Source: a virus. Taken from it: a DNA stretch of 57,447 nucleotides. The stretch covers positions 1 through 57,447 of IMG/VR virus record IMGVR_UViG_3300031566_000035; one strand, given 5' to 3'. The notes under the pieces are model-generated. The model had not been told where the DNA came from. It did no database searches and saw only the letters and a list, made by a program, of their open reading frames with translations. A program made the position numbers and the translations under genes. This document shows, piece by piece, positions 15,939-41,499 of this stretch; within the stretch, counting starts at the first letter, position 1, and every line of letters begins with the position of its first letter.

Positions 15939-16041
15939 ATAACCAACGATAGATAAATTTTCAAATTATAACAAAATGAAAAACGAAGCAAAAAAGATTG
16001 ATAACAAACAAGGCAATGGAGTTTTACCGTGTGTTAGCGGT
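15939..16041 (+). repeat. attC-like site 1
   Basis: Left half TAACCAACGATAGATAAA (from 15940); the right half ends at GTTAGCGG (16033-16040), whose complement reads CTAACACACGGTAAA. First site of the first cluster. The right half is inside ORF 15976-16257 and is read as VLPCVSGS. The following cassette also holds a second GTTG-type right end at 16200 and the HNH gene. Confidence 0.6.
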
Positions 16042-16257
16042 TCGTTTTCATGGAAAAAACTTCTACACAACTTTTGTTATTGGACAAATCCATTTTATAT
16101 GCTATCAACTGATTTAAAGAATAGTCCAAAAGCGCAGGCATTTATTGTAGAGCATTTCGGACATATACTTGAGCCAATAGTAATTTGGTTATCTAAAATG
16201 TTGTATTGCGCCATTAAGGCTTGTGCGCATAGCATCCGTTACGCTAAGAAAGGCTAA
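15976..16257 (+). CDS. Cassette ORF reading through a right half (93 aa)
   Basis: 93 residues. Residues about 16-24 (VLPCVSGSF) are encoded by the right half of site 1, with the recombination GTT as an in-frame Val codon. Downstream lies a basic/hydrophobic segment without known motif. The 3' end is made by the 51-bp repeat at 16200-16250. It looks like a composite ORF built by cassette insertion. Confidence 0.5.
   Translation: MKNEAKKIDNKQGNGVLPCVSGSFSWKKLLHNFCYWTNPFYMLSTDLKNSPKAQAFIVEHFGHILEPIVIWLSKMLYCAIKACAHSIRYAKKG
16200..16250 (+). repeat. 51-bp repeat, copy 1 (cassette head)
   Basis: Starts GTTGTATTGCGCC and ends CGTTACGCTAAGAA; identical to 22885-22935 except one G/A difference. In both places it starts at a GTTG right-half end, so it is the head of a duplicated or independently acquired cassette. 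Confidence 0.85.
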
Positions 16258-16284
16258 TTGAGTGATTTAAAAAGTTTTGAAATT

Positions 16285-16785
16285 ATGACTCATAAAGAAG
16301 AAAGAGAATTTATTCGACTAAAGTTTAATGGTAGATGTGCGTATTGCGGAAACCCATTGCCTAATAAGTGGCACGTAGACCATAAAATTCCAGTTGTTAG
16401 AAATAAAGAGTTTAATTATGAAAAAAACAAATGGGTTTCCGCAGGCTTTGAGAATCCAGAGAATGACAATATTGAAAACAAAATACCATCTTGTCCAAGT
16501 TGTAACATTAATAAACACTCATTGAGCGTAGATCAATTTCGTAGTTTGATTTCTGGATTTATAAAATCATTAAATAGAGACTCTGTGCAATATAAGGTAT
16601 CTAAAAGATATGGGTTGATACAAGAAATTGATAGGGATGTAGAATTTTATTTTGAAAAATTTCAAAACGAAAATCACGTCCCGTCGGTTTGCAAGTGTAT
16701 AAACTGGCATCCTTCAATTAAAGCAGATATGGGTAAAAAAGCAAGATGTTCGCATTGTGGTAAATTACGGCAAACTTATTGCTAA
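16285..16785 (+). CDS. HNH endonuclease with C-terminal zinc motif
   Basis: 166 residues from ATG 16285. CAYCG (about 17-21), HVDHKIPV (about 29-36, the HNH DH pair) and CPSCNINKH (about 73-81) form a classical HNH domain. A second cysteine cluster lies at the C-terminus (about 139-166, ending CSHCG...YC). Stop codon TAA is the TAA of site 2's left half. Probably a DNA nickase or homing-type nuclease carried as a cassette. Confidence 0.75.
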   Translation: MTHKEEREFIRLKFNGRCAYCGNPLPNKWHVDHKIPVVRNKEFNYEKNKWVSAGFENPENDNIENKIPSCPSCNINKHSLSVDQFRSLISGFIKSLNRDSVQYKVSKRYGLIQEIDRDVEFYFEKFQNENHVPSVCKCINWHPSIKADMGKKARCSHCGKLRQTYC

Positions 16786-16905
16786 CGGTGGTGTATGACA
16801 CGTTTGAATTAAACAGACATTAATTAAAAATACTATACAGTTATGAAAAACACTAAATATACAAATACAGACTACGTGCAAATGTGTTATGACACGTTGT
16901 TAGCA
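16780..16905 (+). repeat. attC-like site 2
   Basis: Left half GCTAACGGTGGTGTATGACA (16781-16800); right half GTGTTATGACACGTTGTTAG (16884-16903). Arms are imperfect reverse complements. The next cassette starts TTAGCACCC and ends GGGTGCTAAC, a perfect match to the self-complementarity rule. Confidence 0.8.
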
Positions 16906-17085
16906 CCCGTTGTTTGGGGCGTTAATAAATTCGGACAAGAAGTAAAAGAACATGATAAGCTAAGTTGTGGCAATGGACACGATACTTGGTTTACTCACGT
17001 AATGTTTGACACACAAAGAAACTGTTGGCACAGGGAGCAAGACTATTACCACAGCCGAGTGGTTGGTTTTTACAATGGGTGCTAA
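16843..17085 (+). CDS. Cassette ORF through right half of site 2 (80 aa)
   Basis: 80 residues. The N-terminus is encoded in the loop of site 2, and the right half is read as YDTLLAP (Leu-Leu at the GTTA). A later ATG at 16882 also lies in the right half. The C-terminal part (NGHDTWFTHVMFD ... HREQDYYHSR) has many His and aromatic residues but no known family. Its TAA stop lies in the next left half. Confidence 0.5.
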   Translation: MKNTKYTNTDYVQMCYDTLLAPVVWGVNKFGQEVKEHDKLSCGNGHDTWFTHVMFDTQRNCWHREQDYYHSRVVGFYNGC

Positions 17086-17361
17086 CGGTTTGTGTTTGTG
17101 TAGTGCGTGAAATATGCACAAAATTTGATACGAGATGAAAAAAACAATTTTATTTAACGACTTCTGTGCTAATAAAAAATGTGAAGAATATATTGCATGG
17201 AATTATGATGTCGAAGGTTGTCCAGTAGACTGTGAAAGTTGTAAACTGGTAGGACAAAGCCATGACATTACGGAATATCCTAAAAATTGTTTGTTTTTGA
17301 ATGACATACAAAAGTTTGAACGAGGCAGAAAGTAAGCATGGAATTTACGCATTGTTAGCGT
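17081..17361 (+). repeat. attC-like site 3 (gene in loop)
   Basis: Left TAACGG at 17083 with inner arm TGCGTGAAAT; right half AATTTACGCATTGTTAGCG (17342-17360). The pairing is less regular, with about ten extra bases in the left arm. Gene 17135-17335 lies between the halves. Confidence 0.55.
17135..17335 (+). CDS. Cysteine-rich small protein (66 aa)
   Basis: 66 residues with seven cysteines, including CEEY...GCPVDCESC (about 16-37), suggesting zinc binding. It lies in the loop between the halves of site 3 rather than in a conventional cassette position. Function unknown. Confidence 0.5.
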   Translation: MKKTILFNDFCANKKCEEYIAWNYDVEGCPVDCESCKLVGQSHDITEYPKNCLFLNDIQKFERGRK

Positions 17362-17431
17362 TATTGTGTTTTGCGAAACTATTTTGCTTCAACTTAGATT
17401 AAACTTTGTTGAGCAAAATATTAACGCTAAC
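17355..17431 (+). other. Non-coding cassette with internal hairpin
   Basis: Begins TTAGCGTT and ends AACGCTAAC (self-complementary ends) but holds no ORF. Its middle can fold: ATTTTGCTTCAAC pairs with GTTGAGCAAAAT. It may supply an RNA, a promoter or simply be a decayed cassette. Confidence 0.6.
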
Positions 17432-17629
17432 GGTTTAGGTATGGCATGTAATTTTACGAATTAAAAGAACGAAATAATGGAAACAAAAGTATTAGAAATT
17501 ATTAAAGATGAAAGTGAAAAAGCAGATGTTAGAAAATACACCTGCATTAACGGATTTGGATATTCGCAGTTTGAACGCAATATAGCAGATAGGGTAGTAA
17601 AATTATTTGCTATACCACGTGTTACAAAC
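17424..17629 (+). repeat. attC-like site 4
   Basis: Left half GCTAACGGTTTAGGTATGGC (17427-17446); right half GCTATACCACGTGTTAC (17609-17625). The right half is inside ORF 17477-17719. The cassette head TTACAAAC matches its tail GTTTGTAAC. Confidence 0.7.
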
Positions 17630-17719
17630 TGGCGTTTTTGGTATGACAACCGAAACAACAGGATTGTAGGATTTATAGTTGGATTGATTACAGGCATGGC
17701 TATTTACGCTTGTTTGTAA
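17477..17719 (+). CDS. Cassette ORF through right half of site 4 (80 aa)
   Basis: 80 residues: a charged N-terminal part encoded in the site loop, IPRVTNW at the right half (GTT as Val), then a C-terminal membrane helix (about 60-79). TAA stop lies in the left half of site 5. N- and C-terminal parts look unlike each other, as in a composite gene. Function unknown. Confidence 0.5.
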   Translation: METKVLEIIKDESEKADVRKYTCINGFGYSQFERNIADRVVKLFAIPRVTNWRFWYDNRNNRIVGFIVGLITGMAIYACL

Positions 17720-17846
17720 CGTTGACGCTATGAAAAGTAGCGGAAATCGAAGCACTTAACTATCAAATTACGATGAATTTAAATAAAATTATAAACCACC
17801 AAACAGCACCGACACCGCTATTTTTTATAGCATGTGTTATGCGCTG
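17714..17846 (+). repeat. attC-like site 5 (well formed)
   Basis: Left half TAACGTTGACGCTATGAAAA (17717-17736), then GTAGCGG; right half CCGCTATTTTTTATAGCATG then TGTTATGCGC. About 25 paired positions. The head of the following cassette, TTATGCGC, is the exact complement of its tail GCGCATAAC at 18122. Confidence 0.85.
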
Positions 17847-17868
17847 GGCGGTATAATAACAAATAATT

Positions 17869-18117
17869 ATGAAAAGTAATGATAAACCCGTAAACCCAAC
17901 TCCAATAGCTGGAGGTGATGAATCAGTAGTAAATATTCATTCAATGGCTAATAGTACAGGAATGACAGAAGGAATTACATTGCGTGAACATTTTGCATCA
18001 ATGGCTATGCAAGGATTATTAAGTCAACATAATCTAAAACAGCCTACTGACCAACAAATAATATGTCAACTTAGCGTTGAATTAGCCGATACGTTGCTTG
18101 ATGAACTCGCAAAGTAG
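17869..18117 (+). CDS. Cassette protein, unknown (82 aa)
   Basis: 82 residues: polar, Thr/Ser-rich N-terminus, then a helical segment with REHFASMAMQGLLSQ (about 38-52). The second half (REHFA to LADTLLDEL) is reminiscent of small phage proteins found in Bacteroidota islands, but no function is known. It fills a classical cassette between sites 5 and 6. Confidence 0.6.
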   Translation: MKSNDKPVNPTPIAGGDESVVNIHSMANSTGMTEGITLREHFASMAMQGLLSQHNLKQPTDQQIICQLSVELADTLLDELAK

Positions 18118-18121
18118 CCTT

Positions 18122-18226
18122 GCGCATAACGGTTTGGCTATGTTTTGAAGCCTAACCACAACCACAAATGATTGAATTTAGTATAAACTTGACAAAGGCT
18201 TTTAAATATAGCTTTTGTTATAAACT
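18122..18226 (+). repeat. attC-like site 6
   Basis: Left half CATAACGGTTTGGCTATGTT (18125-18144) continuing TTGAAGCC; right half GGCTTTTAAATATAGC then TTTTGTTATAAAC. The loop is about 45 bases and non-coding. Cassette head TTATAAAC matches tail GTTTATAAC. Confidence 0.85.
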
Positions 18227-18238
18227 GAAAAAAAAATT

Positions 18239-18388
18239 ATGGCAACAACTATTTGGTTGATACTATCCTTGATTGAAAAAGAGCCGATACCTAACTTTTT
18301 GCAAAGCAATGGCAGTTGGGTTAGTTCGTGGATACCTGCATTATTGCTTGATTTATTCGTTATTTACATAATTTTTTATTGTTTATAA
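18239..18388 (+). CDS. Small membrane cassette protein (49 aa)
   Basis: 49 residues with hydrophobic segments near 4-12 and 32-48 (ALLLDLFVIYIIFYCL). It fills the shortest coding cassette: the ATG is 22 bases after the recombination point and the TAA stop is part of the next left half. Confidence 0.55.
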   Translation: MATTIWLILSLIEKEPIPNFLQSNGSWVSSWIPALLLDLFVIYIIFYCL

Positions 18389-18668
18389 CGAAAAAGTATA
18401 TGAACTGAAATTAAAATTTTTTGAGCGATGGCAAGAACTAAAGGAAGCGGTTGGGGTGGTGGAACTATCCTATACCAAAAATGCCCTAAATGCGGCAAAA
18501 AGAAAGTAATGTATGATGGTGGTAGCGGAATAAGAGATTTAACCTCAATTCCGTTTAAATGCACCTCATGTAAGCATAGGTTTAATGACTCTGATTTGAT
18601 TAGAGAGCAATACGCAGCAAAAGCGGGTAGGCAATTTTAATTTTTGTTTATATACAGTGTTGTATTGA
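18382..18668 (+). repeat. attC-like site 7 (gene in loop)
   Basis: Left half ATAACGAAAAAGTATATGAA (18385-18404); right half GTTTATATACAGTGTTGTAT (18646-18665). The complete gene 18428-18640 sits between the halves. Confidence 0.7.
18428..18640 (+). CDS. Zinc-ribbon protein in a site loop (70 aa)
   Basis: 70 residues. CPKCGKK (about 19-25) and CTSCKHR (about 45-51) form a zinc ribbon. Glycine-rich, basic N-terminus (GSGWGGG). Lies wholly between the left and right halves of site 7. Possibly nucleic-acid binding. Confidence 0.6.
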   Translation: MARTKGSGWGGGTILYQKCPKCGKKKVMYDGGSGIRDLTSIPFKCTSCKHRFNDSDLIREQYAAKAGRQF

Positions 18669-18696
18669 GCGCAGCGGCGTTTTAATGCAATACAAC
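18660..18696 (+). other. Minimal non-coding cassette (about 35 bp)
   Basis: Head TTGTATTG and tail CAATACAAC are complementary, enclosing only GAGCGCAGCGGCGTTTTAATG. It obeys the cassette rule but carries no gene: either a relic of a deleted cassette or a bare recombination unit. Confidence 0.6.
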
Positions 18697-18790
18697 GTAT
18701 GGTAATATGAAAAGTTGGCTTTGTAGTCACTTTCAGTTTACCATCGCAGCTTGATAGCCAATTTTTTATATTACGTGTTATCGGCTGCCT
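18691..18790 (+). repeat. attC-like site 8 (well formed)
   Basis: Left half ACAACGTATGGTAATATGAA (18692-18711), then AAGTTGGCT; right half AGCCAATTTTTTATATTACG then TGTTATCGGC. Loop of about 40 non-coding bases. Cassette head TTATCGGC matches tail GCCGATAAC. Confidence 0.85.
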
Positions 18791-18820
18791 TTTATTGTTA
18801 AATTATTAAATATCAAATAA

Positions 18821-19204
18821 ATGAAAAGAGAAATATTATTTAAAGGAAAATCGGTTAATACTGGCGAATGGGTTGAAAGTATGACTATTGCAAAAGGAAC
18901 TATTAAACGCAAAAAAGATGATGTGTTTATGGAGATTGGCGAAAATAAATGGATAGGTATTGAACCTAAATCATTAAGCCAATTTATAAACCAAAAGGAT
19001 AAAAACGGCAAAAAGATTTTTGAAGGCGATTATGATGCCGATGGTAATTGTGTTGTTTGGTGTGAAAACTGTAATGGTTTTGAATTTGCTGCTATAGATG
19101 TACCAACTAAAGATATTTGCATACCATGCCATAGATGCGATGGAAATTTCTTCTTTGGCGACCAAATAAACGACTTTGAGATTGTCGGAAATATTGCGGA
19201 CTAA
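18821..19204 (+). CDS. YopX-like protein (cassette)
   Basis: 127 residues. MKREILFKGKS...GEWVES at the start and the ...FINQKDKNGKKIFEGD... core (about 47-66) are characteristic of the YopX family of phage proteins (function unknown). A late cysteine set (CENC, CHRC) adds a zinc-like motif. A second YopX-like gene is at 22429. Confidence 0.7.
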   Translation: MKREILFKGKSVNTGEWVESMTIAKGTIKRKKDDVFMEIGENKWIGIEPKSLSQFINQKDKNGKKIFEGDYDADGNCVVWCENCNGFEFAAIDVPTKDICIPCHRCDGNFFFGDQINDFEIVGNIAD

Positions 19205-19209
19205 GGTTG

Positions 19210-19268
19210 CCGATAACGAATAGTGGTAAGCGGTCGTTTTAATGCCGTTTACCACGTGTTACCGGCTG
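19210..19268 (+). repeat. attC-like site 9 (shortest, compact)
   Basis: Left half GATAACGAATAGTGGTAAGC (19212-19231); right half GCCGTTTACCACGTGTTACC (19244-19263). Only about 55 bp end to end, the size of a classical attC. Cassette head TTACCGGC pairs with tail GCTGGTAAC (one G-T). Confidence 0.85.
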
Positions 19269-19299
19269 ACACGGATTATTAACCACTAAAGATTATTAA

Positions 19300-20139
19300 A
19301 TGAACGAATGTAGCAATAACAGTTTTTTGAGCGTTGGCAAAAACGGCTTTGCCGAACTTACACACGGCTCACTTTTTAGTGGCGTTGGCGGGTTTGAAGA
19401 AGGCTCTGAGCTGGCAGGAATAAAGACTATTTGGAATTGTGAACTTGAAAATTACCAAAGTAAAATATTAAAGCAAAATTACAATGAAAGCAAACAATAT
19501 AGAGATATTACAGAAGCCGAAATCAAAGAGCGAGTTAGCATCATTAGTGGAGGTTTTCCGTGCCAAGACATTAGCGTTGCGGGAAAAATGGAAGGTATCA
19601 CAGGTAAACGCTCTGGGCTTTGGAGTGAGATGTTTAGAATTATTAGGGACATTAGACCTTACTACGTCATCATTGAAAACTCGCCAGCTTTGCTTATTCG
19701 AGGATTTGAACAAGTCTTATGCGACCTTTCCAAAATCGGGTATAATGCAGAATGGCAAAGTATTTCAAACATCGCTTTTGGATACCCACACAAGAGAGAA
19801 AGATTATACGCTATTGCCTACGCCAACGAAATCGGATTACAAAGCGACATTTGCACAGGTGACGGCTTTAACTCGATATTTAGAAAGTGGACACCAAATC
19901 AGAATGATGGATATTCTTTGTCAAAAAGGATTCACGAAATCGGAGCGTGTGAAGATATTAGAAATGGTGATGGGTTTCAATCCTGGACACACAGAGTTGG
20001 AAGCATAGGAAATGCAGTAAACCCAACAGTTGCCTACTATTTATTTGAATGTATTAAGCATCATTTTTTAAAAAGGAGGGGAGAAAAAACTGTTATTGCG
20101 GACTTACAGCAGATAACTCGATTAAATGTATCGGCGTAG
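19300..20139 (+). CDS. DNA (cytosine-5) methyltransferase (cassette)
   Basis: 279 residues. C5-MTase motifs in order: I LFSGVGGFEEG (about 25-35), IV GGFPCQDIS with catalytic Cys (about 85-93), VI VIIENSP (ENS instead of the common ENV), VIII GYPHKRERLYAIAY (about 162-175), X GSIGNAVNP. The target-recognition region is short (about 180-235), so specificity cannot be read. It probably methylates phage DNA to evade restriction. Unusually, a 174-codon ORF is nested in another frame (19484-20008). Confidence 0.85.
   Translation: MNECSNNSFLSVGKNGFAELTHGSLFSGVGGFEEGSELAGIKTIWNCELENYQSKILKQNYNESKQYRDITEAEIKERVSIISGGFPCQDISVAGKMEGITGKRSGLWSEMFRIIRDIRPYYVIIENSPALLIRGFEQVLCDLSKIGYNAEWQSISNIAFGYPHKRERLYAIAYANEIGLQSDICTGDGFNSIFRKWTPNQNDGYSLSKRIHEIGACEDIRNGDGFQSWTHRVGSIGNAVNPTVAYYLFECIKHHFLKRRGEKTVIADLQQITRLNVSA
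19484..20008 (+). CDS. Nested ORF inside the methyltransferase gene, +1 frame (174 aa)
   Basis: An uninterrupted 174-codon frame lies wholly within the methyltransferase gene. Its translation is not random-looking: LCLFEDLNKSYATFPKSGIM, YTLLPTPTKSDYKATF and VMGFNPGHTELE resemble a phage protein family often annotated near C5-MTases (PTP-x-SD and MGFP-x-xW/HT segments). No separate promoter is evident; the start could be ATG 19484 or internal. Whether it is translated is unknown. Confidence 0.45.
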   Translation: MKANNIEILQKPKSKSELASLVEVFRAKTLALREKWKVSQVNALGFGVRCLELLGTLDLTTSSLKTRQLCLFEDLNKSYATFPKSGIMQNGKVFQTSLLDTHTREKDYTLLPTPTKSDYKATFAQVTALTRYLESGHQIRMMDILCQKGFTKSERVKILEMVMGFNPGHTELEA

Positions 20140-20145
20140 TGTTTG

Positions 20146-20212
20146 CTGGTAACGGTTTGGCTATGCACCGTATGAGGAACGAATATGGGGTATAGGTGTT
20201 GTTACCCACCTG
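20146..20212 (+). repeat. attC-like site 10 (compact)
   Basis: Left half GGTAACGGTTTGGCTATGCA (20148-20167); right half GGGGTATAGGTGTTGTTACC (20187-20206). Cassette head TTACCCAC is the exact complement of its tail GTGGGTAAC at 20685. Confidence 0.8.
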
Positions 20213-20245
20213 TACCGATTTAATAACGAAAAACTTTAATTGAAA

Positions 20246-20692
20246 ATGAAAACTTTTGTCTTGACTGTTTCAAAGCAGTTTCCAAAAACACACGAAAAGG
20301 CTGGAAAATCAACTGGCTTTGTAGAAAATATCTCCCGACTATTTACTAATGATAGTGAGAAGATACATACTATTCGCTCAAATTATGACCTATGGCACAA
20401 ACGAGCAAAAGAAATAAACGAAGGAAAGGCTGTGTTGTCGATTAGATACTGGTTTGAAATGCCTTACCGTTCAAAGCAAGTTGAAATTTGCAGACTTGAA
20501 AGAGTTGGTGTTGAAAAACTTGAACAGCCTGACAACTTCGTATTTGCTCCAATTGAAGGGAAGCCGATTGATTGGGAATTAGTGGCAAAGAATGACGGTT
20601 TAAGTTTTGAGGACTTTTGCGAGTGGTTTAAGTCAAGACAAAAAGAACCTATGGCTGTTCTTCATTTTACCGACTTTAGGTATGGTGGGTAA
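20246..20692 (+). CDS. ASCH/PUA-like protein (cassette)
   Basis: 148 residues from ATG 20246. FVLTVSKQFPKTH, KIHTIRSNYDLW (about 41-52) and LSIRYWFEMPYRSKQVEI (about 69-86) resemble a phage family with an ASCH-like RNA-binding fold. The stop TAA is in the left half of site 11. Its molecular role is not established. Confidence 0.6.
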   Translation: MKTFVLTVSKQFPKTHEKAGKSTGFVENISRLFTNDSEKIHTIRSNYDLWHKRAKEINEGKAVLSIRYWFEMPYRSKQVEICRLERVGVEKLEQPDNFVFAPIEGKPIDWELVAKNDGLSFEDFCEWFKSRQKEPMAVLHFTDFRYGG

Positions 20693-20819
20693 CGGTGGCA
20701 ATAAGAAACGAAAGGGATTGCGAGCCACGAACCTATCAAACCGTGAAAATTTGGCACGGATTACTGAACTTGATTAACCGATTAAACCCTTTTGTTTTTT
20801 ATTGCGTGTTATAAGCCGT
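20684..20819 (+). repeat. attC-like site 11 (well formed)
   Basis: Left half GGTAACGGTGGCAATAAGAA (20688-20707), then ACGAAAGGG; right half CCCTTTTGTTTTTTATTGCG then TGTTATAAGCC. About 26 paired positions, loop about 65 bases, non-coding. Cassette head TTATAAGCC equals the complement of tail GGCTTATAA. Confidence 0.85.
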
Positions 20820-20871
20820 ATTTGTTTTATTATCAACCGAAAGTAAAATAATTTAAAAATAAATCACTTTT

Positions 20872-20912
20872 TACTTGTATATATGATATATATTATATAT
20901 CTTTACTTCATA
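20872..20912 (+). promoter_or_regulatory. Possible promoter inside a cassette
   Basis: TTG in TTTTACTTGTATATATG, followed about 20-25 bases later by TATATCTTTA, resembles the Bacteroidota promoter. It lies in the 130-bp leader before the two small genes of this cassette, which would make the cassette self-expressing. Confidence 0.45.
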
Positions 20913-20938
20913 ATTAATAACAAATAAAACATACAATT

Positions 20939-21103
20939 ATGAGTACAACAGAAGTAAGAGAACAATTAAAAGCAGAAGGAATTTCTGCAATTGTTAAATT
21001 GGTAGATAATAGATTTGAAATAAAAGTAAAAATGCAGGAAAACTTTACAAAAGTAGTAAGAATGTTTCCTTTGGCAAATGTAAGCCATACAACGATTAGA
21101 TAA
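20939..21103 (+). CDS. Small cassette protein, gene 1 of a pair (54 aa)
   Basis: 54 residues (MSTTEVREQLKAEG start), helical then beta-prone. Its stop abuts the next start (TAAATG), so the two genes are co-translated. The pair, with its own promoter-like leader, resembles a toxin-antitoxin or regulator arrangement, but no known toxin motif was seen. Confidence 0.5.
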   Translation: MSTTEVREQLKAEGISAIVKLVDNRFEIKVKMQENFTKVVRMFPLANVSHTTIR

Positions 21104-21244
21104 ATGAAAAAGATTATTGATATACCTGACGAAATAGTTAAAGACTTAAAGAAGTTAGCTATTGACCAAAATAAAGACCTAAAAAACTTTATTCAAGACG
21201 AACTAAAAAAACTTGTCGAGAACCCTCAATCGAAGCCGTCTTAA
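21104..21244 (+). CDS. Small helical protein, gene 2 of a pair (46 aa)
   Basis: 46 residues: KKIIDIPDEIVKDLKKLAID then an amphipathic helix. The pattern (short strand then two helices) resembles ribbon-helix-helix antitoxins or repressors. Could regulate the cassette's own promoter. Inference only. Confidence 0.5.
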   Translation: MKKIIDIPDEIVKDLKKLAIDQNKDLKNFIQDELKKLVENPQSKPS

Positions 21245-21248
21245 TATG

Positions 21249-21384
21249 GCTTATAACGTTGAGTATAAGAAACGTAGCGTTTTAAAACACTTAACTACAA
21301 TAACTTACAAAAGTGAAATTGAAATAGAAAATTTAATATTAACCACTGGTGCAGCTATGTTTTTTATACATTGTTACCACCAGT
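21249..21384 (+). repeat. attC-like site 12
   Basis: Left half TATAACGTTGAGTATAAGAA (21252-21271), then ACGTAGCG; right half GCTATGTTTTTTATACATTG then TTACCACC. Loop about 75 bases. Cassette head TTACCACC matches tail GGTGGTAAC. Confidence 0.85.
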
Positions 21385-21399
21385 ACATTAATTAACAGC

Positions 21400-21645
21400 A
21401 TGAAGAAATTTAATATAAACCACTATATGTACATTCAGATAACCGATACTGGATGGCAACACCTAAAGCAAACTGTGGGTGAAGATTACATTAAACATTG
21501 TATTGAACCTTATAAAACTGATGTAGATGGCAAAACTTGGTATAGATTACAAGCCCACAGTGTATTTGAACTACTGCCAATAAATTTCGGTGGACAAGTA
21601 GCCTACAACCCTAATGTAATGTTTGACGATAAAGACCTTACTTAG
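21400..21645 (+). CDS. Cassette protein, unknown (81 aa)
   Basis: 81 residues from ATG 21400. YMYIQITDTGWQHLKQ at about 9-24 resembles a phage protein family of unknown role in which a winged-helix-like fold has been suspected. ATG 21349 is rejected because it lies in the right half of site 12. Confidence 0.6.
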   Translation: MKKFNINHYMYIQITDTGWQHLKQTVGEDYIKHCIEPYKTDVDGKTWYRLQAHSVFELLPINFGGQVAYNPNVMFDDKDLT

Positions 21646-21649
21646 TATT

Positions 21650-21858
21650 GGTGGTAACGTTGAGTGTATGGTTTGATTTTTAACGATTTAAAAGAACGAA
21701 ATATGAAAGATTTAGAACACTTACAAAGAATTATAAAAGAATTGCAAAATGATAAAGATAACGGAAAACTTGGTGATTACGCACAAGGTAGATTAGCTGC
21801 ATTTAAGATGTCAGAAAAATTAGTTAAAAATTTAACTATACATATTGTTAGCAATTCG
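21650..21858 (+). repeat. attC-like site 13
   Basis: Left half GGTAACGTTGAGTGTATGGT (21653-21672); right half AACTATACATATTGTTAGC (21834-21852), which is inside ORF 21703-21954. Cassette head TTAGCAAT matches tail ATTGCTAA. Confidence 0.75.
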
Positions 21859-21954
21859 GTTTGCTGCGATAACTGCCAACACCAAACACCAAGACATAGT
21901 ATTATGTGCAGTAGTTGCTTAGGGTTTAATCACTTTCAGCAAACTGATTGCTAA
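21703..21954 (+). CDS. Composite cassette ORF (83 aa)
   Basis: 83 residues. The N-terminal 45, encoded in the loop of site 13, form a charged helix (LQRIIKELQNDKDNG). The right half is read as IHIVSNSV (GTT as Val). The C-terminal part is a CDNCQH ... CSSC zinc motif supplied by the next cassette. Looks like a fusion created at the recombination point. Confidence 0.55.
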   Translation: MKDLEHLQRIIKELQNDKDNGKLGDYAQGRLAAFKMSEKLVKNLTIHIVSNSVCCDNCQHQTPRHSIMCSSCLGFNHFQQTDC

Positions 21955-22043
21955 TGTTTCGACTGTATGGCGTGAGCCTTGTACTTCACAAGGCGGAAAG
22001 CCATTCAATAGATGCTTACGCTATACAGTATGTTATGAGTAGT
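21947..22043 (+). repeat. attC-like site 14 (well formed)
   Basis: Left half CTAATGTTTCGACTGTATGG (21951-21970), then CGTGAGC; right half GCTTACGCTATACAGTATG then TTATGAGTAG. It has TAAT instead of TAAC. Cassette head TTATGAGTA matches tail TACTCATAAC. Confidence 0.8.
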
Positions 22044-22076
22044 GACACAAGTTTTAACCTTAAAATAATTATAGAA

Positions 22077-22343
22077 ATGGAAAATGTAAAAGAATTAATT
22101 GAATTAAAAGCTATGATGATATTGGCTTGTAAACTAAATAAAGAGCAACTTATAATTGAACTTACAGACCTTGTAAATTCAATTAATTCAGCATCTATCG
22201 AAAGTCGAAACATTATGAGTAATGAGGCTCAAAAAGAGCTATTAATTGATGTGCTTAATGTTATTGAGCGTTACTATGATGTAGAATTTGGTAACATTGA
22301 TAATGCAGTAAGCTATATATTAGCTAAAATTAATAGTGATTGA
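22077..22343 (+). CDS. Cassette protein, helical, unknown (88 aa)
   Basis: 88 residues, almost entirely helical (LIELKAMMILACKLNKEQLI ...), acidic. No known family. A longer frame from 21948 is rejected because it starts in site 14. Confidence 0.55.
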   Translation: MENVKELIELKAMMILACKLNKEQLIIELTDLVNSINSASIESRNIMSNEAQKELLIDVLNVIERYYDVEFGNIDNAVSYILAKINSD

Positions 22344-22362
22344 GCCGTCCACTTGTGGCATT

Positions 22363-22896
22363 ACTCATAACGGTTTGGCTATGTTTTGAAAATATATTTT
22401 ACTAATTTTTAACTAAAATAAAAAGATAATGAAAAGAGAAATTAAATTTAGAGTTTGGGAACAAAATAAAAAGAAAATGGTATATCCGATTGACACTTTA
22501 AAGGTGAGTAACGAGGAAGGATATTCACATTTAGAGCAATTTTTAGATCGTGGAGATTTAGTAATGGCAGACGATTATGATATTAAGCATTATAAAAAGT
22601 TACCATGTATTATGATGCAATACACTGGAATAAAAGATGTTGACGGCAAAGAAATTTACGAAGATGACATAATTAACGGTATGACCGTAACATACTGCGG
22701 AGATCAAAATGGCGGGCTTGGAATGGCTTGTGGTTGGTATTTACAGCAAGATGATTTTGAAAGATGGATAGAGTTAGAATCTAAATGTAATGCAAATGGA
22801 GATAACCATAAAATTGATGGGAATGTACATGAGAACCCTGAACTACTAAAAAGCTAAAAATATATTTATAAAATATTAGCTGTTGTTGTATTGCGC
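22363..22896 (+). repeat. attC-like site 15 (gene in loop)
   Basis: Left half ATAACGGTTTGGCTATGTTT (22367-22386), then TGAAAATATATTTT; right half AAAATATATTTATAAAATAT then TAGCTGTTGTTGTATTG. A long, clear complementarity although the complete YopX-like gene (22429-22857) lies between the arms. Confidence 0.75.
22429..22857 (+). CDS. YopX-like protein (in a site loop)
   Basis: 142 residues. MKREIKFRVWEQNKKKMVYP at the start and MQYTGIKDVDGKEIYEDDII (about 63-82) are YopX-family hallmarks. A second YopX-like gene at 18821 lies in a normal cassette, whereas this one lies between the two halves of site 15. Function of the family is unknown; it is common in phage early regions. Confidence 0.75.
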   Translation: MKREIKFRVWEQNKKKMVYPIDTLKVSNEEGYSHLEQFLDRGDLVMADDYDIKHYKKLPCIMMQYTGIKDVDGKEIYEDDIINGMTVTYCGDQNGGLGMACGWYLQQDDFERWIELESKCNANGDNHKIDGNVHENPELLKS

Positions 22897-22935
22897 CATT
22901 AAGGCTTGTGCACATAGCATCCGTTACGCTAAGAA
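22885..22935 (+). repeat. 51-bp repeat, copy 2 (cassette head)
   Basis: Same sequence as 16200-16250 with one difference, again starting at a GTTG right-half end. Here the rest of the cassette (to 23021) is non-coding and its tail GGAATACAATGG complements the head TTGTATT. Confidence 0.85.
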
Positions 22936-23012
22936 CTGATTATTAATATGCAGATTATCAGCTTTAAACTGATACAGAGACTATGAAACATAAAAAACAT
23001 TATAGCGTAATG

Positions 23013-23504
23013 GAATACAATGGATGGCAATAAGAATAGTTGGCTCTCGAAATTTAGTACAGACTTTAATTTGAAATACAAATAAAAACAAAAAAGAGAT
23101 GGAAAAACATGATTTAAGAACACAAATTTGCATAGAAGTAGATGCAAAAAATATTGATGGTAAAACAGCGAGCAGATTACTACAAGCTATTAATAATACC
23201 GAAAATAAGCAAATAAGCAAATTACAACATTTCAAGGACACAACTGTTGGGCTATATGCTTTTGATTGTAACCCAGAAGATTTAATTATAAAATTTGTAA
23301 ATAGCCAAAGCGATGCTTGTAGTTTATTTACAGAAGATGTTGATAGACTTACTGAAGATTGGAAAACATTTTGTAATGATAAAAATATTGTAAAAAGTCC
23401 ATTTTTCAGAATTAGTGGGTAGGCTTTTGTTTTTATTCCACACAAACCTACTGCACTTGATTGAAAAACAAGCCAATTATTTTTATTGCGTGTTATAAAC
23501 TGTA
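23013..23504 (+). repeat. attC-like site 16 (gene in loop)
   Basis: Left half ACAATGGATGGCAATAAGAA (23017-23036), then TAGTTGGCT; right half AGCCAATTATTTTTATTGCG then TGTTATAAAC. About 25 paired positions around gene 23099-23422. Confidence 0.8.
23099..23422 (+). CDS. Protein in a site loop, unknown (107 aa)
   Basis: 107 residues, acidic, alpha/beta, no recognised motif. Its 3' end (GTGGGTAGGCTTTT) is shared with the end of gene 25190-25483, also a loop gene, and resembles a mutated left half (GTGGGTAAC to GTGGGTAGG). Confidence 0.55.
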   Translation: MEKHDLRTQICIEVDAKNIDGKTASRLLQAINNTENKQISKLQHFKDTTVGLYAFDCNPEDLIIKFVNSQSDACSLFTEDVDRLTEDWKTFCNDKNIVKSPFFRISG

Positions 23505-23510
23505 AAAATT

Positions 23511-23702
23511 ATGAGCATATTATTAGACAAATTACTAAAAGAAGCAGACACCTCAACAACCACACAAGCAAAAGATTTGAAGTGGTATATCGCAAAACCA
23601 TTACCGTTTTATTCGTTGAAAACAAAACTTAAAAGGATAAAAGATGGATTAAGAGTTATGAACGGAAAATCTTTTGCGGTACATTATAAACAAGATGAAT
23701 AA
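23511..23702 (+). CDS. Small basic cassette protein (63 aa)
   Basis: 63 residues, basic C-terminal half (KTKLKRIKDGLRVMNGK), possible nucleic-acid binding. Cassette head TTATAAAC and tail GTTTATAAC are complementary. Function not recognised. Confidence 0.55.
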   Translation: MSILLDKLLKEADTSTTTQAKDLKWYIAKPLPFYSLKTKLKRIKDGLRVMNGKSFAVHYKQDE

Positions 23703-23710
23703 TTTTTATT

Positions 23711-23818
23711 GTTTATAACGGCTGGCGGTATGGTTTAGTAAAGGCTGACCACTACCGACCAATCGAAGAACAAAACTTAATTCAGCCTTTATTAACTATA
23801 CCGCTTGTTAGGCTTTCG
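23711..23818 (+). repeat. attC-like site 17 (well formed)
   Basis: Left half ATAACGGCTGGCGGTATGGT (23715-23734), then TTAGTAAAGGCTG; right half CAGCCTTTATTAACTATACC then GCTTGTTAGGC. About 29 paired positions. Cassette head TTAGGCTT equals the complement of tail AAGCCTAA. Confidence 0.88.
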
Positions 23819-23846
23819 TGCTTTGCGGGCGGGAAACACAAAGATT

Positions 23847-24074
23847 ATGAGAAACTATACAACATTAGATTTAGTGAGGTTTAACAGGCTTGCAAATGAA
23901 AACAAAGACCTAAAGCCAATTGAGTTGATTAAATTATATAATGAAAAGTACCCTGAGAAAACAGCAAAAGAAAAACTGATAATTTTATCAAAGGCTTTAG
24001 GAATTAATAACCTACACAAAGCCTTAACTGGTAATGATATTCCAGAGGACGAGCGTTGGGAGCATGAAGCCTAA
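23847..24074 (+). CDS. Cassette protein, helical (75 aa)
   Basis: 75 residues from ATG 23847, all-helical, mixed charge (DLVRFNRLANENKDLKPIE). The TAA stop is the TAA of site 18's left half. No family recognised. Confidence 0.55.
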   Translation: MRNYTTLDLVRFNRLANENKDLKPIELIKLYNEKYPEKTAKEKLIILSKALGINNLHKALTGNDIPEDERWEHEA

Positions 24075-24352
24075 CGGCAAATTGTAAGTTGTCGGGTGCT
24101 GTTGAAATACGCACAGAATTAAATTGAAAAATAAATGTTGAATAACTTAAATAGTGAACGGATGAAATTTACAGACAAACAAATTAAGGCAGCAAAGGAA
24201 GTGAAAGAAGAAGTAATACACGGTACTTTGTATGATTGGAGACATATTTACATGGCTGGTGAAATTTGCATGTGGGACGAATTACAGCAAAAGAAAGTGA
24301 ACGGTGTTGAACAAAGCGAAAGCACCTGCAATTTACAAAATGTTATAGATAG
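24069..24352 (+). repeat. attC-like site 18
   Basis: Left half CCTAACGGCAAATTGTAAGT (24070-24089), then TGTCGGGTGCT; right half AGCACCTGCAATTTACAAAA then TGTTATAGA, inside ORF 24135-24470. Cassette head TTATAGA matches tail TCTATAAC. Confidence 0.8.
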
Positions 24353-24470
24353 GTTTTGTGCGTTGGAAGATGCGATGAAACTTACTCTTACAAAAAACAT
24401 TGGTAAAGTTAGTTTAATAAATAGATTTGAAGAACTTGGTAAAGCGCTGGGGAGGGAAACTTCTCTATAA
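24135..24470 (+). CDS. Composite cassette ORF (111 aa)
   Basis: 111 residues. About 68 residues are encoded in the loop of site 18, the right half is read as NLQNVIDRF (GTT as Val), and the C-terminal part comes from the next cassette. The N-terminal part ends near a WRHIYMAGEICMWDE stretch. No family identified. TAA stop lies in site 19. Confidence 0.5.
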   Translation: MLNNLNSERMKFTDKQIKAAKEVKEEVIHGTLYDWRHIYMAGEICMWDELQQKKVNGVEQSESTCNLQNVIDRFCALEDAMKLTLTKNIGKVSLINRFEELGKALGRETSL

Positions 24471-32795: not shown

Positions 32796-32876
32796 ACCGT
32801 TCGTTTTTACGATATTAACCATACCGCTTGTTAGCGTTTCGTTTTTGAGCGTTGGCGGTAGAAAACTTAAAATATC

Positions 32877-33215
32877 ATGGGAGAAACAGCAGACATGATA
32901 CTTGATGGTATCTTAGATGAACAAACAGGTGAATATATCGGTGAGGCGGTAGGATATCCACGGACAATGCAGAAAGGATGTTATAACTCAATTAAAAAAC
33001 GAAAGCCTAAACGAAACATTAAATATGCGATGAAAGGCGAAAGTTTAGGAGGGTTGCATTTAGTGGGAAAGAACGCTATAATCGAAAATGTAGGTGAATG
33101 TGAAATTGTGGACTATATAGGGAAAAGAGGTCGTAAAAGATATGTTTTGATTGATAATGAAGGTAAAGAACATAGAGTTGAATTTAGCAGTATGACGCTG
33201 TGCGTTGGCAAATGA
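32877..33215 (+). CDS. Cassette protein (112 aa)
   Basis: 112 residues. The C-terminal half (VDYIGKRGRKRYVLIDNEGK) looks like a small beta-barrel or SH3-like fold; basic middle (KKRKPKRNIK). Cassette ends TTAGCGTT/AACGCTAA are complementary. Possibly nucleic-acid binding. Confidence 0.55.
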   Translation: MGETADMILDGILDEQTGEYIGEAVGYPRTMQKGCYNSIKKRKPKRNIKYAMKGESLGGLHLVGKNAIIENVGECEIVDYIGKRGRKRYVLIDNEGKEHRVEFSSMTLCVGK

Positions 33216-33500
33216 ACGCTAACGGTAAAGCTATGTTGCGTGCGAGAATACAGAAAAATAATTATACGTTAAATAAAAAAAATAGAAATTATGAGTGCAA
33301 AGGATTTTAAAAGAAAAAAAGCAATTGCATTTTTAGGGTTAATTGGAGTTAAAACAGACACTAAAATAAACCTAGAACATGGAAAAGATTGTGGTGCTAC
33401 AATGAAATTAATAGATATTATGGTTGCGTTTTATGATGATATGTGCGATACACAAAAAAACACCGTATGCAATTGCACAAAAAGCTAGCGGTGTTGACTT
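33215..33500 (+). repeat. attC-like site 27 (decayed right half)
   Basis: Left half GCTAACGGTAAAGCTATGTT (33218-33237), then GCGTGCG is clear. The best right half is CCGTATGCAATTGCACAAAA then AGCTAGCGG (to 33491), where GTTA has become GCTA. Probably an inactivated site. Confidence 0.4.
33291..33488 (+). CDS. Protein in the loop of site 27 (65 aa)
   Basis: 65 residues, helical, with four Cys near the end (CDTQKNTVCNC). No family. The 3' end runs into the decayed right half. Confidence 0.5.
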   Translation: MSAKDFKRKKAIAFLGLIGVKTDTKINLEHGKDCGATMKLIDIMVAFYDDMCDTQKNTVCNCTKS

Positions 33501-33545
33501 GGTGTTTACGTGTACTTGCGGCGAAAAAATAAACTTATAATATGG

Positions 33546-33606
33546 TTGCTAATGTTAGTATAAGTGGCGTTTTTTCTATGCCATTTATACATTGTTACCT
33601 GACTGG
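33546..33606 (+). repeat. attC-like site 28 (compact)
   Basis: Left half GCTAATGTTAGTATAAGTGG (33548-33567), then CG; right half ATGCCATTTATACATTGTTA (33578-33597). About 60 bp. Cassette head TTACCTG; the tail is CAGGTACG at 34325, one base short of CAGGTAACG. Confidence 0.8.
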
Positions 33607-33734
33607 TACGATTTATAAGCCTAAAACTTTGATTTAAGCACACAATAAGTAACTATTTATTTTTTAGCGTTGGCAAATTAATGAGGCACGAATTAAAATA
33701 TTTACAAAATAATTAAAATAATTTGCTTTTATAG

Positions 33735-33764
33735 TTGATAATTACAAAATAAGTTATATATTTG
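33735..33764 (+). promoter_or_regulatory. Promoter inside a cassette
   Basis: TTG (33735-33737), 19 bases, TATATTTG (33757-33764), a perfect Bacteroidota promoter, 29 bases before the ATG of 33793. It lies within the cassette between sites 28 and 29, making that cassette self-expressing. Confidence 0.75.
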
Positions 33765-33792
33765 TAGTGTAAGAAACAAACAAATAGAAATT

Positions 33793-34080
33793 ATGAAAAG
33801 AAATGTGTGGATACCAAAAATGACAAAAGGAAGATTAGAAAGATTATTAGCCAAATCAAAGTTAACTAATGATGAAAAAGAAGATTTGTTAGACTACAAG
33901 TATTTTTTACTTAATCAAAAAGTTTGTGCTTATGAGAAAAAATTAATGGATGCTGTAAGTGTTAATCAAGCAGAAGAGTTTTGCGATATTAGAGGTTGTA
34001 TTTTAGTTCCTAAAAATATGTTTTGGTTAACTAACATAAATCATTTAACTAACGGATTTAAAAGCGAATACTATTTATAA
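33793..34080 (+). CDS. Cassette protein with own promoter (95 aa)
   Basis: 95 residues, basic N-terminus (WIPKMTKGRLERLLAKSKLT), helical. Preceded by the promoter at 33735 and coupled to the next gene (TAATGG). Function not recognised. Confidence 0.6.
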   Translation: MKRNVWIPKMTKGRLERLLAKSKLTNDEKEDLLDYKYFLLNQKVCAYEKKLMDAVSVNQAEEFCDIRGCILVPKNMFWLTNINHLTNGFKSEYYL

Positions 34081-34268
34081 TGGCATACATATACTACAAT
34101 AAAGAATTAAACCAATACAGATTGTTTGGAAGCCTTCCTGTAATGTGTAAGACTTGCGAATTAGATTACACGCATTTACAATACGCATTTAGAAATAATA
34201 AAACGGAATACGAAAACGACACTTTAAAGATTATTAAGGTTACGCTTGAAAGGGGTGGAAAAAAATAA
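34080..34268 (+). CDS. Second gene of the promoter-bearing cassette (62 aa)
   Basis: 62 residues starting at the last base of the previous stop. CKTCELDYTHL (about 22-32) suggests a zinc-binding or redox pair. The two-gene, self-expressed arrangement is reminiscent of toxin-antitoxin cassettes in chromosomal integrons, but no toxin family is recognised. Confidence 0.5.
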   Translation: MAYIYYNKELNQYRLFGSLPVMCKTCELDYTHLQYAFRNNKTEYENDTLKIIKVTLERGGKK

Positions 34269-34322
34269 ATAGTTACGTGTAGATAAAAACAGGTTTTAGA
34301 ATTAAGCACGAACCTAAGTACT

Positions 34323-34457
34323 TGCAGGTACGAAAAAGTATATGATTTCGAGCCGATAAATGGCACGAAACTACAATAACAGAATAAAGTAAATTAATAT
34401 TATAAACTAAGAAGATAGCACCAACACGGCTTGAATTATATACGGTGTTGTGCATCT
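34323..34457 (+). repeat. attC-like site 29 (well formed)
   Basis: Left half GGTACGAAAAAGTATATGAT (34327-34346), then TTCGAGCCG; right half CGGCTTGAATTATATACGGT then GTTGTGCA. Left arm nearly identical to that of site 7. Cassette head TTGTGCA equals the complement of tail TGCACAA. Confidence 0.8.
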
Positions 34458-34474
34458 TTTAAAAATGCGGAATT

Positions 34475-34789
34475 ATGCAAGGAAAATACCTTATAAACAC
34501 AGATGAATGGTTTGTTGCACCAAATGGTAATAGCTACAAAGCAGCGTGGGGAAATGTTGAAATAATAGAAGACACTTCTTTAGGACTAAAAACTAACAGA
34601 AATAGTACAAATTGGTATGCTAGAGTGGGGAGCGAGGACAACCACATAATAATAGCAGGTTGCCAAATACACTACGCTGTTAGATGCGAGAATAAACCTA
34701 ATACAGAACCGAGCGAAGAATGGCAAGCAGATGCAGCCAATGGGCTAAAAGAATATAAAGCACCTGCCCGAATATATATAGCTGAGTAG
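34475..34789 (+). CDS. Cassette protein (104 aa)
   Basis: 104 residues, tryptophan- and Asn-rich, beta-prone (YLINTDEWFVAPNGNSYKAA). No family recognised. Fills the cassette between sites 29 and 30. Confidence 0.55.
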   Translation: MQGKYLINTDEWFVAPNGNSYKAAWGNVEIIEDTSLGLKTNRNSTNWYARVGSEDNHIIIAGCQIHYAVRCENKPNTEPSEEWQADAANGLKEYKAPARIYIAE

Positions 34790-34801
34790 CATTTTTTATT
34801 G

Positions 34802-34862
34802 TGCACAACAACGCTAAGCTGAAATTCGTTTCAATGAATTTTAGCGACCGTTATCAATCGTA
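34802..34862 (+). repeat. attC-like site 30 (compact, end of cluster 3)
   Basis: Left half CAACGCTAAGCTGAAATTCG (34809-34828); right half TGAATTTTAGCGACCGTTAT (34834-34853). About 55 bp. No complementary tail was found for the head TTATCAATC, so this site closes the cluster. Confidence 0.7.
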
Positions 34863-40076: not shown

Positions 40077-40212
40077 TTTACAACGTTGAATGCAAGGTGT
40101 CGTGGCTGCCTGATAAAAGCTACATAGTTATAAATTTAAACAAATATTGATATGAAAAACGAAACTTTAAAACCCCAACAGCCATGCACTATATAACATA
40201 GTTATGGGTAGT
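40077..40212 (+). repeat. attC-like site 33
   Basis: Left half ACAACGTTGAATGCAAGGTG (40080-40099), then TCGTGGCTG; right half CAGCCATGCACTATATAACA then TAGTTATGGG. Cassette head TTATGGGTA matches tail TACCCATAA. The right end GTTATGG provides the start codon of the next gene. Confidence 0.75.
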
Positions 40213-40485
40213 ACTTATAGAATGCCAGAAAGTTTCTCTGAATATGAAGGCGAAGAGATTATGTCAAACTTTGACGGGCGTGTAGTAGAAGAAAGTGCAA
40301 AAGCAATTAAAGGTAAGGAATTATTTAGTAGGTATGCTGGTTGGAACTTTAACGGAAAAGTTTGGTGGCAGAATGATAAATGGTTATGTGAAGTGTGGTG
40401 TTATAGAAGCTGGAGAGAAACTTTCGTTTGTGAAACGCCAAAAGAATTAATGGAAGAGATAAGCTCTGAATATGGGTACGAATAG
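40204..40485 (+). CDS. Cassette protein starting inside the recombination site (93 aa)
   Basis: 93 residues. The start codon is the ATG within the right-half end GTTATGGG, so it would travel with the cassette. Trp-rich (AGWNFNGKVWWQNDKWLCEV). No known family. Confidence 0.6.
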   Translation: MGSTYRMPESFSEYEGEEIMSNFDGRVVEESAKAIKGKELFSRYAGWNFNGKVWWQNDKWLCEVWCYRSWRETFVCETPKELMEEISSEYGYE

Positions 40486-40489
40486 TATT

Positions 40490-40783
40490 ACCCATAACGG
40501 ACAGCGGTATGATTCGTTTGCTCCTCGAATCACCACGAAATTAGGAGCGTAGTATTAACTTAACAATTTACGAGCGATGGATTTTGGATATGCTATACAG
40601 ATTTTAAGAGAAAAATTAGTTGATGATAGTTATGAACTTACATTAGCTGTTGAACAAAAAGATGAAGAAGTGCAGGAACGGCAAAAAGAACGCTTAGCTA
40701 TATTGCAGGATGCGATGAATGCGTTGGCTAAACCTTCGAGCATACCACAAGCAAATGAATTATTACCGCATGTTAGCGGTAGT
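40490..40783 (+). repeat. attC-like site 34 (well formed)
   Basis: Left half CATAACGGACAGCGGTATGA (40493-40512), then TTCGTTTGC; right half GCAAATGAATTATTACCGCA then TGTTAGCGG, inside ORF 40577-40924. Cassette head TTAGCGGTA equals the complement of tail TACCGCTAA. Confidence 0.85.
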
Positions 40784-40924
40784 AATAATTTTAAGAAGAT
40801 ACTTAAAAAAGCTAACAGTGAAATATGGCACCTAACTAATGATGAAATAAGAAGTTGGGAAAAAGATGGAAGTATAGAACGTGGTGATATTTTGTACAAA
40901 GTTGTAACAGATACACTGTACTAA
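40577..40924 (+). CDS. Composite ORF across site 34 (115 aa)
   Basis: 115 residues. The N-terminal 58 (helical: IQILREKLVDDSYELTLAVE ...) are in the site loop, the right half is read as ELLPHVSGSN (GTT as Val), and the C-terminal part (IWHLTNDEIRSWEKDG) comes from the cassette. Confidence 0.55.
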   Translation: MDFGYAIQILREKLVDDSYELTLAVEQKDEEVQERQKERLAILQDAMNALAKPSSIPQANELLPHVSGSNNFKKILKKANSEIWHLTNDEIRSWEKDGSIERGDILYKVVTDTLY

Positions 40925-40929
40925 TTATT

Positions 40930-41307
40930 ACCGCTAACGGTTTGTGTATGAAAAGTACGGGATTAACCCTAAAAATTATAAACGAGTACAAATAAAATTT
41001 ACGATTATGAAAACAACAAATGAATTAAGAGACGAATTAGCAATGAAAATGCCAAAAGAAGCATTGCCAACGCTTAACGCACAAGAAACTATGGAGAAAG
41101 TTGCAAAAGAATTTGATATTGATGTTGACTTTAATGATGAGATAAGCCTTATTGAATTTAGCCTAAAATACCAAGCTGCAATAAGGTATAAGTATGCTGA
41201 TGCAATGATTGAAGCAAGAGCTAAGTAAATTTTATTGCTTCAATTACGCAGCAAAGTAGATACGAGAGATACAGTAGTATTTTTTATACACTTTGTTACC
41301 GTGTCGT
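40930..41307 (+). repeat. attC-like site 35 (gene in loop)
   Basis: Left half GCTAACGGTTTGTGTATGAA (40933-40952), then AAGTACGGG; right half AGTAGTATTTTTTATACACT then TTGTTACCG. Gene 41007-41228 lies between. Cassette head TTACCGTG equals the complement of tail CACGGTAA. Confidence 0.8.
41007..41228 (+). CDS. Protein in a site loop (73 aa)
   Basis: 73 residues from ATG 41007, acidic helical protein (ELRDELAMKMPKEALPTLNA). No family recognised. Lies between the halves of site 35. Confidence 0.55.
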   Translation: MKTTNELRDELAMKMPKEALPTLNAQETMEKVAKEFDIDVDFNDEISLIEFSLKYQAAIRYKYADAMIEARAK

Positions 41308-41375
41308 TGCTTCTCCTTAAAAGATGTGACGCTCAAAGATTGCTACTAATTAATTTTAGAGCAATGCACGGTAAC
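41296..41375 (+). other. Non-coding cassette (about 80 bp)
   Basis: Head TTACCGTG, tail CACGGTAAC, no ORF. The last cassette with clear self-complementary ends before the terminase block. Confidence 0.6.
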
Positions 41376-41499
41376 TATGTTATATAGTTCACTTTTATTG
41401 CAATAAAATGAAGATATACACTAATAGACAGGTGATTATGATTTCAGGCGAACAAGCAAAAAGTAGCAATGGATTATATACATTGTTACCCACAGTGCC
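41366..41499 (+). repeat. attC-like site 36
   Basis: Left half GGTAACTATGTTATATAGTT (41370-41389), the same arm as in the 57-bp repeats; right half GGATTATATACATTGTTACC (41471-41490), inside ORF 41408-41623. A near-palindrome TTCACTTTTATTGCAATAAA lies at 41388-41407. Confidence 0.7.

Follow-up and report, generated by a model that had tools for sequence, protein, structure and literature searches.

The cassette array and its sites

The window, by which we mean the whole stretch of DNA that was analysed, is a single IMG/VR virus record (IMGVR_UViG_3300031566_000035) of 57,447 bases, classed as linear and carrying the portal, terminase and tape-measure genes of a tailed phage. Palindromes of the form TAAC...GTTA, accompanied by about 30 small genes, lie in four clusters (15.9-26.0, 28.6-29.1, 32.4-34.9 and 39.3-41.5 kb; Table 1), every one on the plus strand. 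A sequence-only reading, made without database searches, had taken them for an integron-like array of about 33 attC-type sites inside a phage genome; the palindromes were found where it had placed them, and such a cassette array is supported as the best reading. The window probably represents a tailed phage of Bacteroidota-type bacteria with a large integron-type array of polar attC-like sites, in which the genes are reversed and on which a recombinase would act in trans. Searches of the window for tRNA genes found none, and an Rfam search gave no match.

Sites were sought with a stem scan for a YAAC left core, a spacer of 3-8 nt, a stem, a second spacer of 2-5 nt and a GTTR right core, the arms being at most 400 nt apart. 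It identified 20 sites within 15.9-41.6 kb and 1 in the rest of the 57 kb, compared with 0-2 sites in Markov shuffles of the array region, and most stem scores were above those of all Markov-null sites. Testing named left cores with loops of up to 620 nt added sites 20150, 21655, 22368, 23018, 24760, 25114, 28590 and 41372 with scores of 18.5-27.5, the null of 113 random cores having a median of 9.5, a 95% point of 15.5 and a maximum of 18.0. A covariance model built from 36 short sites, of which the window supplied one, gave 12 matches in the window, all on the plus strand and within 16.8-34.9 kb (E 1e-11 to 0.025). Scans, covariance model and random cores thus all placed the sites far above the controls. 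Cores with a stem or with boundary complementarity total approximately 30, to which attI-like ends at 25911 and 29004 are added, so that the count of about 33 was a fair one. With at least two attC sites and no integrase, the window falls among the integrase-less attC clusters (CALINs).

Across all fetched loci, 306 sites were found by scan against 2 in Markov copies. They share the YAAC...GTTR cores and a stem of variable sequence but conserved structure by which attC sites are defined, with 98 double changes against 27 in shuffles, although the sites had been selected by their stem. The sites are asymmetric: the spacer on the TAACG side is mostly 5 nt and that before GTTR mostly 3 nt, wobble pairs with G on the left and T on the right occur 507 times against 76 for the opposite, and of 336 sites, 289 fold better on the gene-sense strand. 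Within array loci, 148 of 149 sites share one strand. The picture of the sites was corrected in two respects. There is no short loop: arm-to-arm spacing runs from 45 to about 520 nt, and in several window sites a start codon or an entire gene lies within the loop (sites 18386, 22368, 23018 and 25114). A conserved extrahelical base as polarity signal was rejected, since none is conserved across sites.

Cassette boundaries and the probable unit of exchange

Segments, each running from a right core to the left core that follows, open with GTTRnnnnn and close with its reverse complement, nnnnnYAAC. With a threshold of at least 8 nt, and with control pairs drawn from non-adjacent segments of one array, end complementarity was present in 74 of 156 adjacent pairs in phages (47%; non-adjacent, 2.6%) and, in chromosomes, in 44 of 68 (65%; non-adjacent, 2.0%), while across one attC in the array it was 1-2%. 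A first comparison with Markov shuffles had given a weak signal (29 against 10, maximum 21), and this control supersedes it. Such complementarity is expected if each segment, joined to one attC, was formerly a circular molecule bearing one hairpin site. It spans 8-11 nt at the segment ends (10 nt in the body 16899-17086), and the ends of integron cassettes have been described as complementary over 9-11 nt (Bouvier 2009, PMC2727003).

Among 189 blocks shared between array loci, 133 start at a left core and 4 at a right core. In 727 pairs of homologous attC sites from different genomes, conservation of the downstream flank only (0.84-0.98) was seen in 5 pairs of 3 families with the upstream flank at background, both flanks were conserved in one pair (L122/L156), and none had an upstream-only flank above 0.6. 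Site polarity, block starts at the left core and downstream flank conservation indicate that the mobile unit is attC with the gene downstream of it, which would be cut at TAA^C (G^TTA of the other strand; the caret marks the cut). The sequence-only reading had proposed exchange exactly at G^TT; the core stands as exchange point, but the arm is the left one in gene orientation, not the right one. A crossover at the right arm, as in the classical order of gene before attC, was rejected for phages by the boundary, orientation and folding tests.

Gene orientation in phages and chromosomes

Loci were turned by site polarity and gene direction was then scored. All 139 of 139 phage cassette genes run with the polarity of the sites and are thus reversed relative to a canonical cassette, whereas 37 of 41 chromosomal cassette genes run against it; a second chromosomal set was canonical by 13 to 0. 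Phage arrays are therefore reversed and host arrays canonical: a gene upstream of its own attC in the same orientation is found in the host chromosomes and not in the phages. Two of the four chromosomal exceptions sit in one locus (L137), whose sites match phage sites. This contig, from the metagenome-assembled genome "bacterium isolate M1805", is filed as bacterial with gene orientation of the phage type and may be phage DNA.

In the phages, attC lies 5' of the gene, and 42 of the 147 cassettes have their start codon within it. At 81 of 214 phage cores the core TAA closes an open frame of 45 codons or more, compared with a rate of 6.5% for every TAAC in these loci. Matches in the sampled host arrays were obtained for just three phage cassette proteins, all related to one another and to the P12002 methyltransferases. 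Opposite orientation and the near lack of common genes argue that the phage cassettes were not simply captured from the hosts.

Distribution and cargo of the site family

A pattern scan of IMG/VR yielded at least 119 loci. At least three sites are present in at least 24 viral loci (among 122 including the window), and no shuffled locus had two. The scan of approximately 85,000 genomes gave 43 loci, nearly all titled Bacteroidota, and with strict filters the covariance model found sites in 27 of 198 Bacteroidota genomes. Named phages with sites are the cultured Polaribacter phages P12002S (5) and P12002L (3), and phi12:1 (1). No named phage matched the window array in a DNA search, and a terminase-based search for close kin of the window phage returned distant relatives only. 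A leader and gene block of Cellulophaga phage Nekkels_1 (L165:2635-2905) is 88% identical to L078:3319-3588 and ends at the next core; by scan Nekkels_1 has almost no sites, and it seems to hold a cassette whose array was lost. One chromosome (L127 and L178) carries a dense array with near-repeated cassettes 86-91% identical within the genome, similar to Vibrio superintegrons.

Most of the 93 cassette proteins scanned had no Pfam match. DNA methyltransferases were the commonest recognisable cargo (N6/N4, 6; C5, 3; MT-A70, 3; D12, 1), followed by YopX (3). An anti-restriction benefit is plausible.

Cassette differences between sister phages and earlier reports

On either side of the array of P12002L and P12002S, stretches of 3.4 and 4.3 kb are 99.9-100% identical, and the cassettes lying between these flanks differ. 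The expectation of the sequence-only reading that related phages would differ in segments bounded exactly at the core held at two of the three junctions, B and C (CAAC^GT..., AAC^AACGG...), and failed at junction A by 6-11 nt. These phages would represent a cultured model pair for cassette exchange between near-identical phages.

Clusters of attC sites in phages were already known: Qi et al. 2023 described CALINs with few sites and no integrase in virulent phages including P12002L, and showed that IntI1 recombines one of two tested P12002L attC sites at G^TT (PMC9892861). Their clusters include this site family and likewise hold DNA methyltransferase cassettes. Uniform gene reversal, large arrays, a wide distribution in IMG/VR and the host recombinase do not figure in that paper, and compared with the open-licence literature, array size, gene reversal, distribution and the atypical recombinase look new.

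Recombinases and candidate attI

Five chromosomes (L175, L177, L178, L179 and L207) encode a tyrosine recombinase of 370-385 residues located 1-4 kb from the last site and always at the array end where attI is expected. Two phages encode shorter recombinases at the same array end, 42-43% identical to a host one. The adjacency is strong in a sample which is not unbiased, since the host recombinases were found partly by following the best IntI-like matches, and several other chromosomal arrays had none in the fetched stretch. The recombinases score 208 bits with TIGR02249 (cut-off 265) and are closer to the XerA/integron integrase model NF040815. The genome of one array phage that also carries a recombinase (G018) contains a Y1 (IS200-like) transposase gene near one end (C1:77895-78188).

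Window hairpins at 25911 and 29004 are attI-like; the copy at 41372, a third one, also forms a pair with a right arm. Together with a similar ACTATATAT element ahead of both phage recombinases, the first two are proposed as a candidate attI. As a general phage attI the window hairpin was rejected because it was not found in other phages. The right arm of site 40081, at 40185-40204, is the attI-like hairpin in reverse complement (TAACTATGTTATATAGT), resembling an attI/attC hybrid.

IntegronFinder 2 listed a complete integron among Bacteroidetes only in Salinibacter ruber (PMC9024848), so the Bacteroidota systems described here were probably not counted, and current integron finders appear to miss this gene-exchange system.

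Proposed mechanism and its alternatives

Under the proposed mechanism a cassette comprises a small gene preceded by a polar attC-like site with conserved structure, and would enter or leave via a folded single strand at the core. The Bacteroidota hosts carry canonical arrays of the same site family with an adjoining XerA/IntI-like tyrosine recombinase, and the phages keep the site polarity with their genes reversed, so that attC often holds the start codon and the TAA of the next core often serves as stop codon. As the window phage has no recombinase, the enzyme of the host or of a co-resident phage would act in trans on its array. The likely benefit would be fast swapping of small accessory genes, including DNA methyltransferases. 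We lean, with modest confidence, towards the wider view of an unrecognised integron-like system common to Bacteroidota and their phages, with a XerA/IntI-like recombinase devoid of the IntI domain, and of a pool of reversed genes evolved by the phages for themselves, in which attC is the 5' leader and the core supplies the stop codon.

Several observations weigh against this mechanism. No PF00589 match to a tyrosine recombinase was obtained in the window, a record that may be incomplete, and a recombinase is present in only 2 of 19 array-bearing virus records, several of the other 17 being fragments. The IntI-specific domain is missing from all host and phage recombinases in an alignment of 7 (61 residues of IntI4 face 19 in the recombinase), and the extrahelical G of L'' was seen on the expected arm in 5 of 238 phage sites, single-nucleotide bulges being mixed in arm and base; on these two grounds the system is integron-like rather than a textbook integron. 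In the sister phages, junction A falls beyond the core, within a brief run of similarity. For many attC sites, identity between phages reaches 90% or more with neither flank in common, and some shared blocks consist of the gene body alone (window/L064, L158/L175). The near-identical sites without shared flanks imply that attC and gene bodies can also part, and right-arm exchange or homologous recombination between attC sites may also happen or may even be the main route.

Part of this evidence would equally suit an inactive relic, in which cassettes captured anciently from bacterial integrons are now moved only by homologous recombination between similar attC sites: most array phages carry no recombinase, near-identical attC blocks sit in unrelated flanks, and junction A is off the core. 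We regard such a relic as unlikely, since complementarity between the ends of the same segment would decay if unused, the two other junctions are at the core, and the phage genes are oriented opposite to those of host arrays and are almost absent from the sampled ones. Far less probable still are regulatory RNA hairpins (leaders, terminators or processing sites) common to small phage genes and unrelated to recombination. The position of sites in 5' leaders, in the 42 cassettes over the start codon, and the better folding of the sense strand are what an RNA element would show. Against this, Rfam gave no match, the same polar site lies on the strand opposite to the genes in chromosomes, cassette-end complementarity spans entire genes, exchange breakpoints fall at the core, and a recombinase adjoins the arrays in hosts. 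REP/RAYT-type palindromes moved by a Y1 transposase, suggested by imperfect palindromes with a conserved terminal tetranucleotide and by the Y1 gene of one array phage, were rejected as hardly credible, as that gene is absent from the window and five other array phages, each segment end pairs with the other end of the same segment, and the enzyme at array ends is a tyrosine recombinase.

The integron-type array preferred here resembles sedentary chromosomal integrons of the Vibrio type in its small uncharacterised genes with attC, the complementarity of cassette ends and a recombinase beside the array. It differs from them in the reversal of the phage genes, the lack of a conserved extrahelical G, a recombinase without the IntI-specific domain and, in host arrays, a recombinase pointing into the array. 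The recombinases are related to IntI (TIGR02249; IntI4, PDB 2a3v) in their core-binding and catalytic domains and differ by the missing IntI-specific insertion. In Spirochaete integrons (mentioned in PMC9668308) intI is reversed, in non-standard orientation relative to the array; the reversed part there is the integrase gene and here the phage cassette genes.

If the proposed mechanism is correct, phages too, and not bacteria alone, keep large accessory-gene libraries of the integron type, in which DNA methyltransferases stand out among the genes that can be recognised, and Bacteroidota hold a large, apparently overlooked integron-like class whose recombinase lacks a domain thought necessary for integron recombination.

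Features of the window

Table 1. Features of the window (stem, stem score; CM E, covariance model E value; ORF, open reading frame)
Feature	Position	Strand	Evidence
Array 1: ~21 attC-like sites and small genes, ends at attI-like hairpin 25911	15939..25960	+	stem scan, boundary complementarity
attC-like site; loop holds start codon of ORF 16843-17085	16783..16902	+	stem 24; CM E 0.0016
attC-like site; ORF 17477-17719 starts in its long loop	17428..17624	+	stem 23.5; boundary pairs 17354/17428, 17621/17717
attC-like site	17717..17839	+	stem 27; CM E 0.002
attC-like site	18127..18220	+	stem 20.5; CM E 7e-6
attC-like site; entire ORF 18428-18640 within loop	18386..18662	+	stem 21.5
attC-like site	18693..18780	+	stem 25.5; CM E 6e-5
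Shortest canonical attC-like site, 48 nt, loop CGTTTTAATGC	19214..19261	+	stem 26.5; CM E 1e-11 but in training set
Cassette gene, C-5 cytosine DNA methyltransferase	19300..20139	+	Pfam PF00145 E 6e-40
attC-like site	20150..20204	+	CM E 5e-7; stem 18-18.5
attC-like site	20690..20811	+	stem 27
attC-like site	21254..21376	+	stem 27; CM E 2e-6
attC-like site; right arm within ORF ending 21954	21655..21850	+	stem 19; boundary pairs 21373/21655, 21847/21952
attC-like site, core TAAT	21952..22035	+	stem 30
attC-like site; gene 22429-22857 in loop	22368..22888	+	stem 19; boundary pair 22032/22368
attC-like site; gene 23099-23422 in loop	23018..23495	+	stem 26.5
attC-like site	23716..23810	+	stem 25
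attC-like site	24072..24345	+	stem 21
attC-like site; loop holds start codon of ORF 24535-24762	24468..24594	+	stem 25; CM E 5e-4
attC-like site	24760..24961	+	stem 19.5; boundary pairs 24591/24760, 24958/25114
attC-like site; gene 25190-25483 in loop	25114..25564	+	stem 27.5
attC-like site; start codon in loop; 142-nt block 92% identical to phage L090, flanks different	25642..25764	+	stem 28.5
attI-like hairpin TAACTATGTTATATAGTTA and leader, 3' end of array 1	25911..25965	+	identical copy 29004; 10-nt boundary pair with 25761
Array 2: single attC-like site; ORF 28638-29006 starts in loop	28590..28884	+	stem 18.5; boundary pair 28881/29004
Second attI-like hairpin, same 50-nt leader, ahead of phage gene 29056	29004..29058	+	
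Array 3: sites 33550-33597, 34809-34853	32370..34853	+	stems 26.5, 23.5; CM E 1e-8, 0.025
Array 3: weaker or boundary-only sites	32370, 33220	+	boundary pair 32830/33220
Array 4: sites 40495-40775, 40935-41298, 41372	40081..41609	+	stems 25, 27, and 20.5 (41372-41488)
Array 4: boundary-only site	40081	+	array boundary pairs 40201/40495, 40772/40935
Cassette gene common to phage array L064, different neighbourhood	41620..41826	+	85% DNA identity/227 nt; 89% protein identity/66 aa

A further candidate in array 4, at 39421, was weak and not confirmed. Between arrays 1 and 2, positions 27664-28332 encode a phage protein similar to Radical-SAM/DUF5131 proteins, whose Pfam matches are weak (E 1.5e-6) and do not reach the gathering cut-off. 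In array 1 a cassette body of 38 nt without a gene (18659-18696, GTTGTATTG...CAATACAAC) has the boundary pair 18659/18693, and the neighbouring gene lies entirely within an attC loop.

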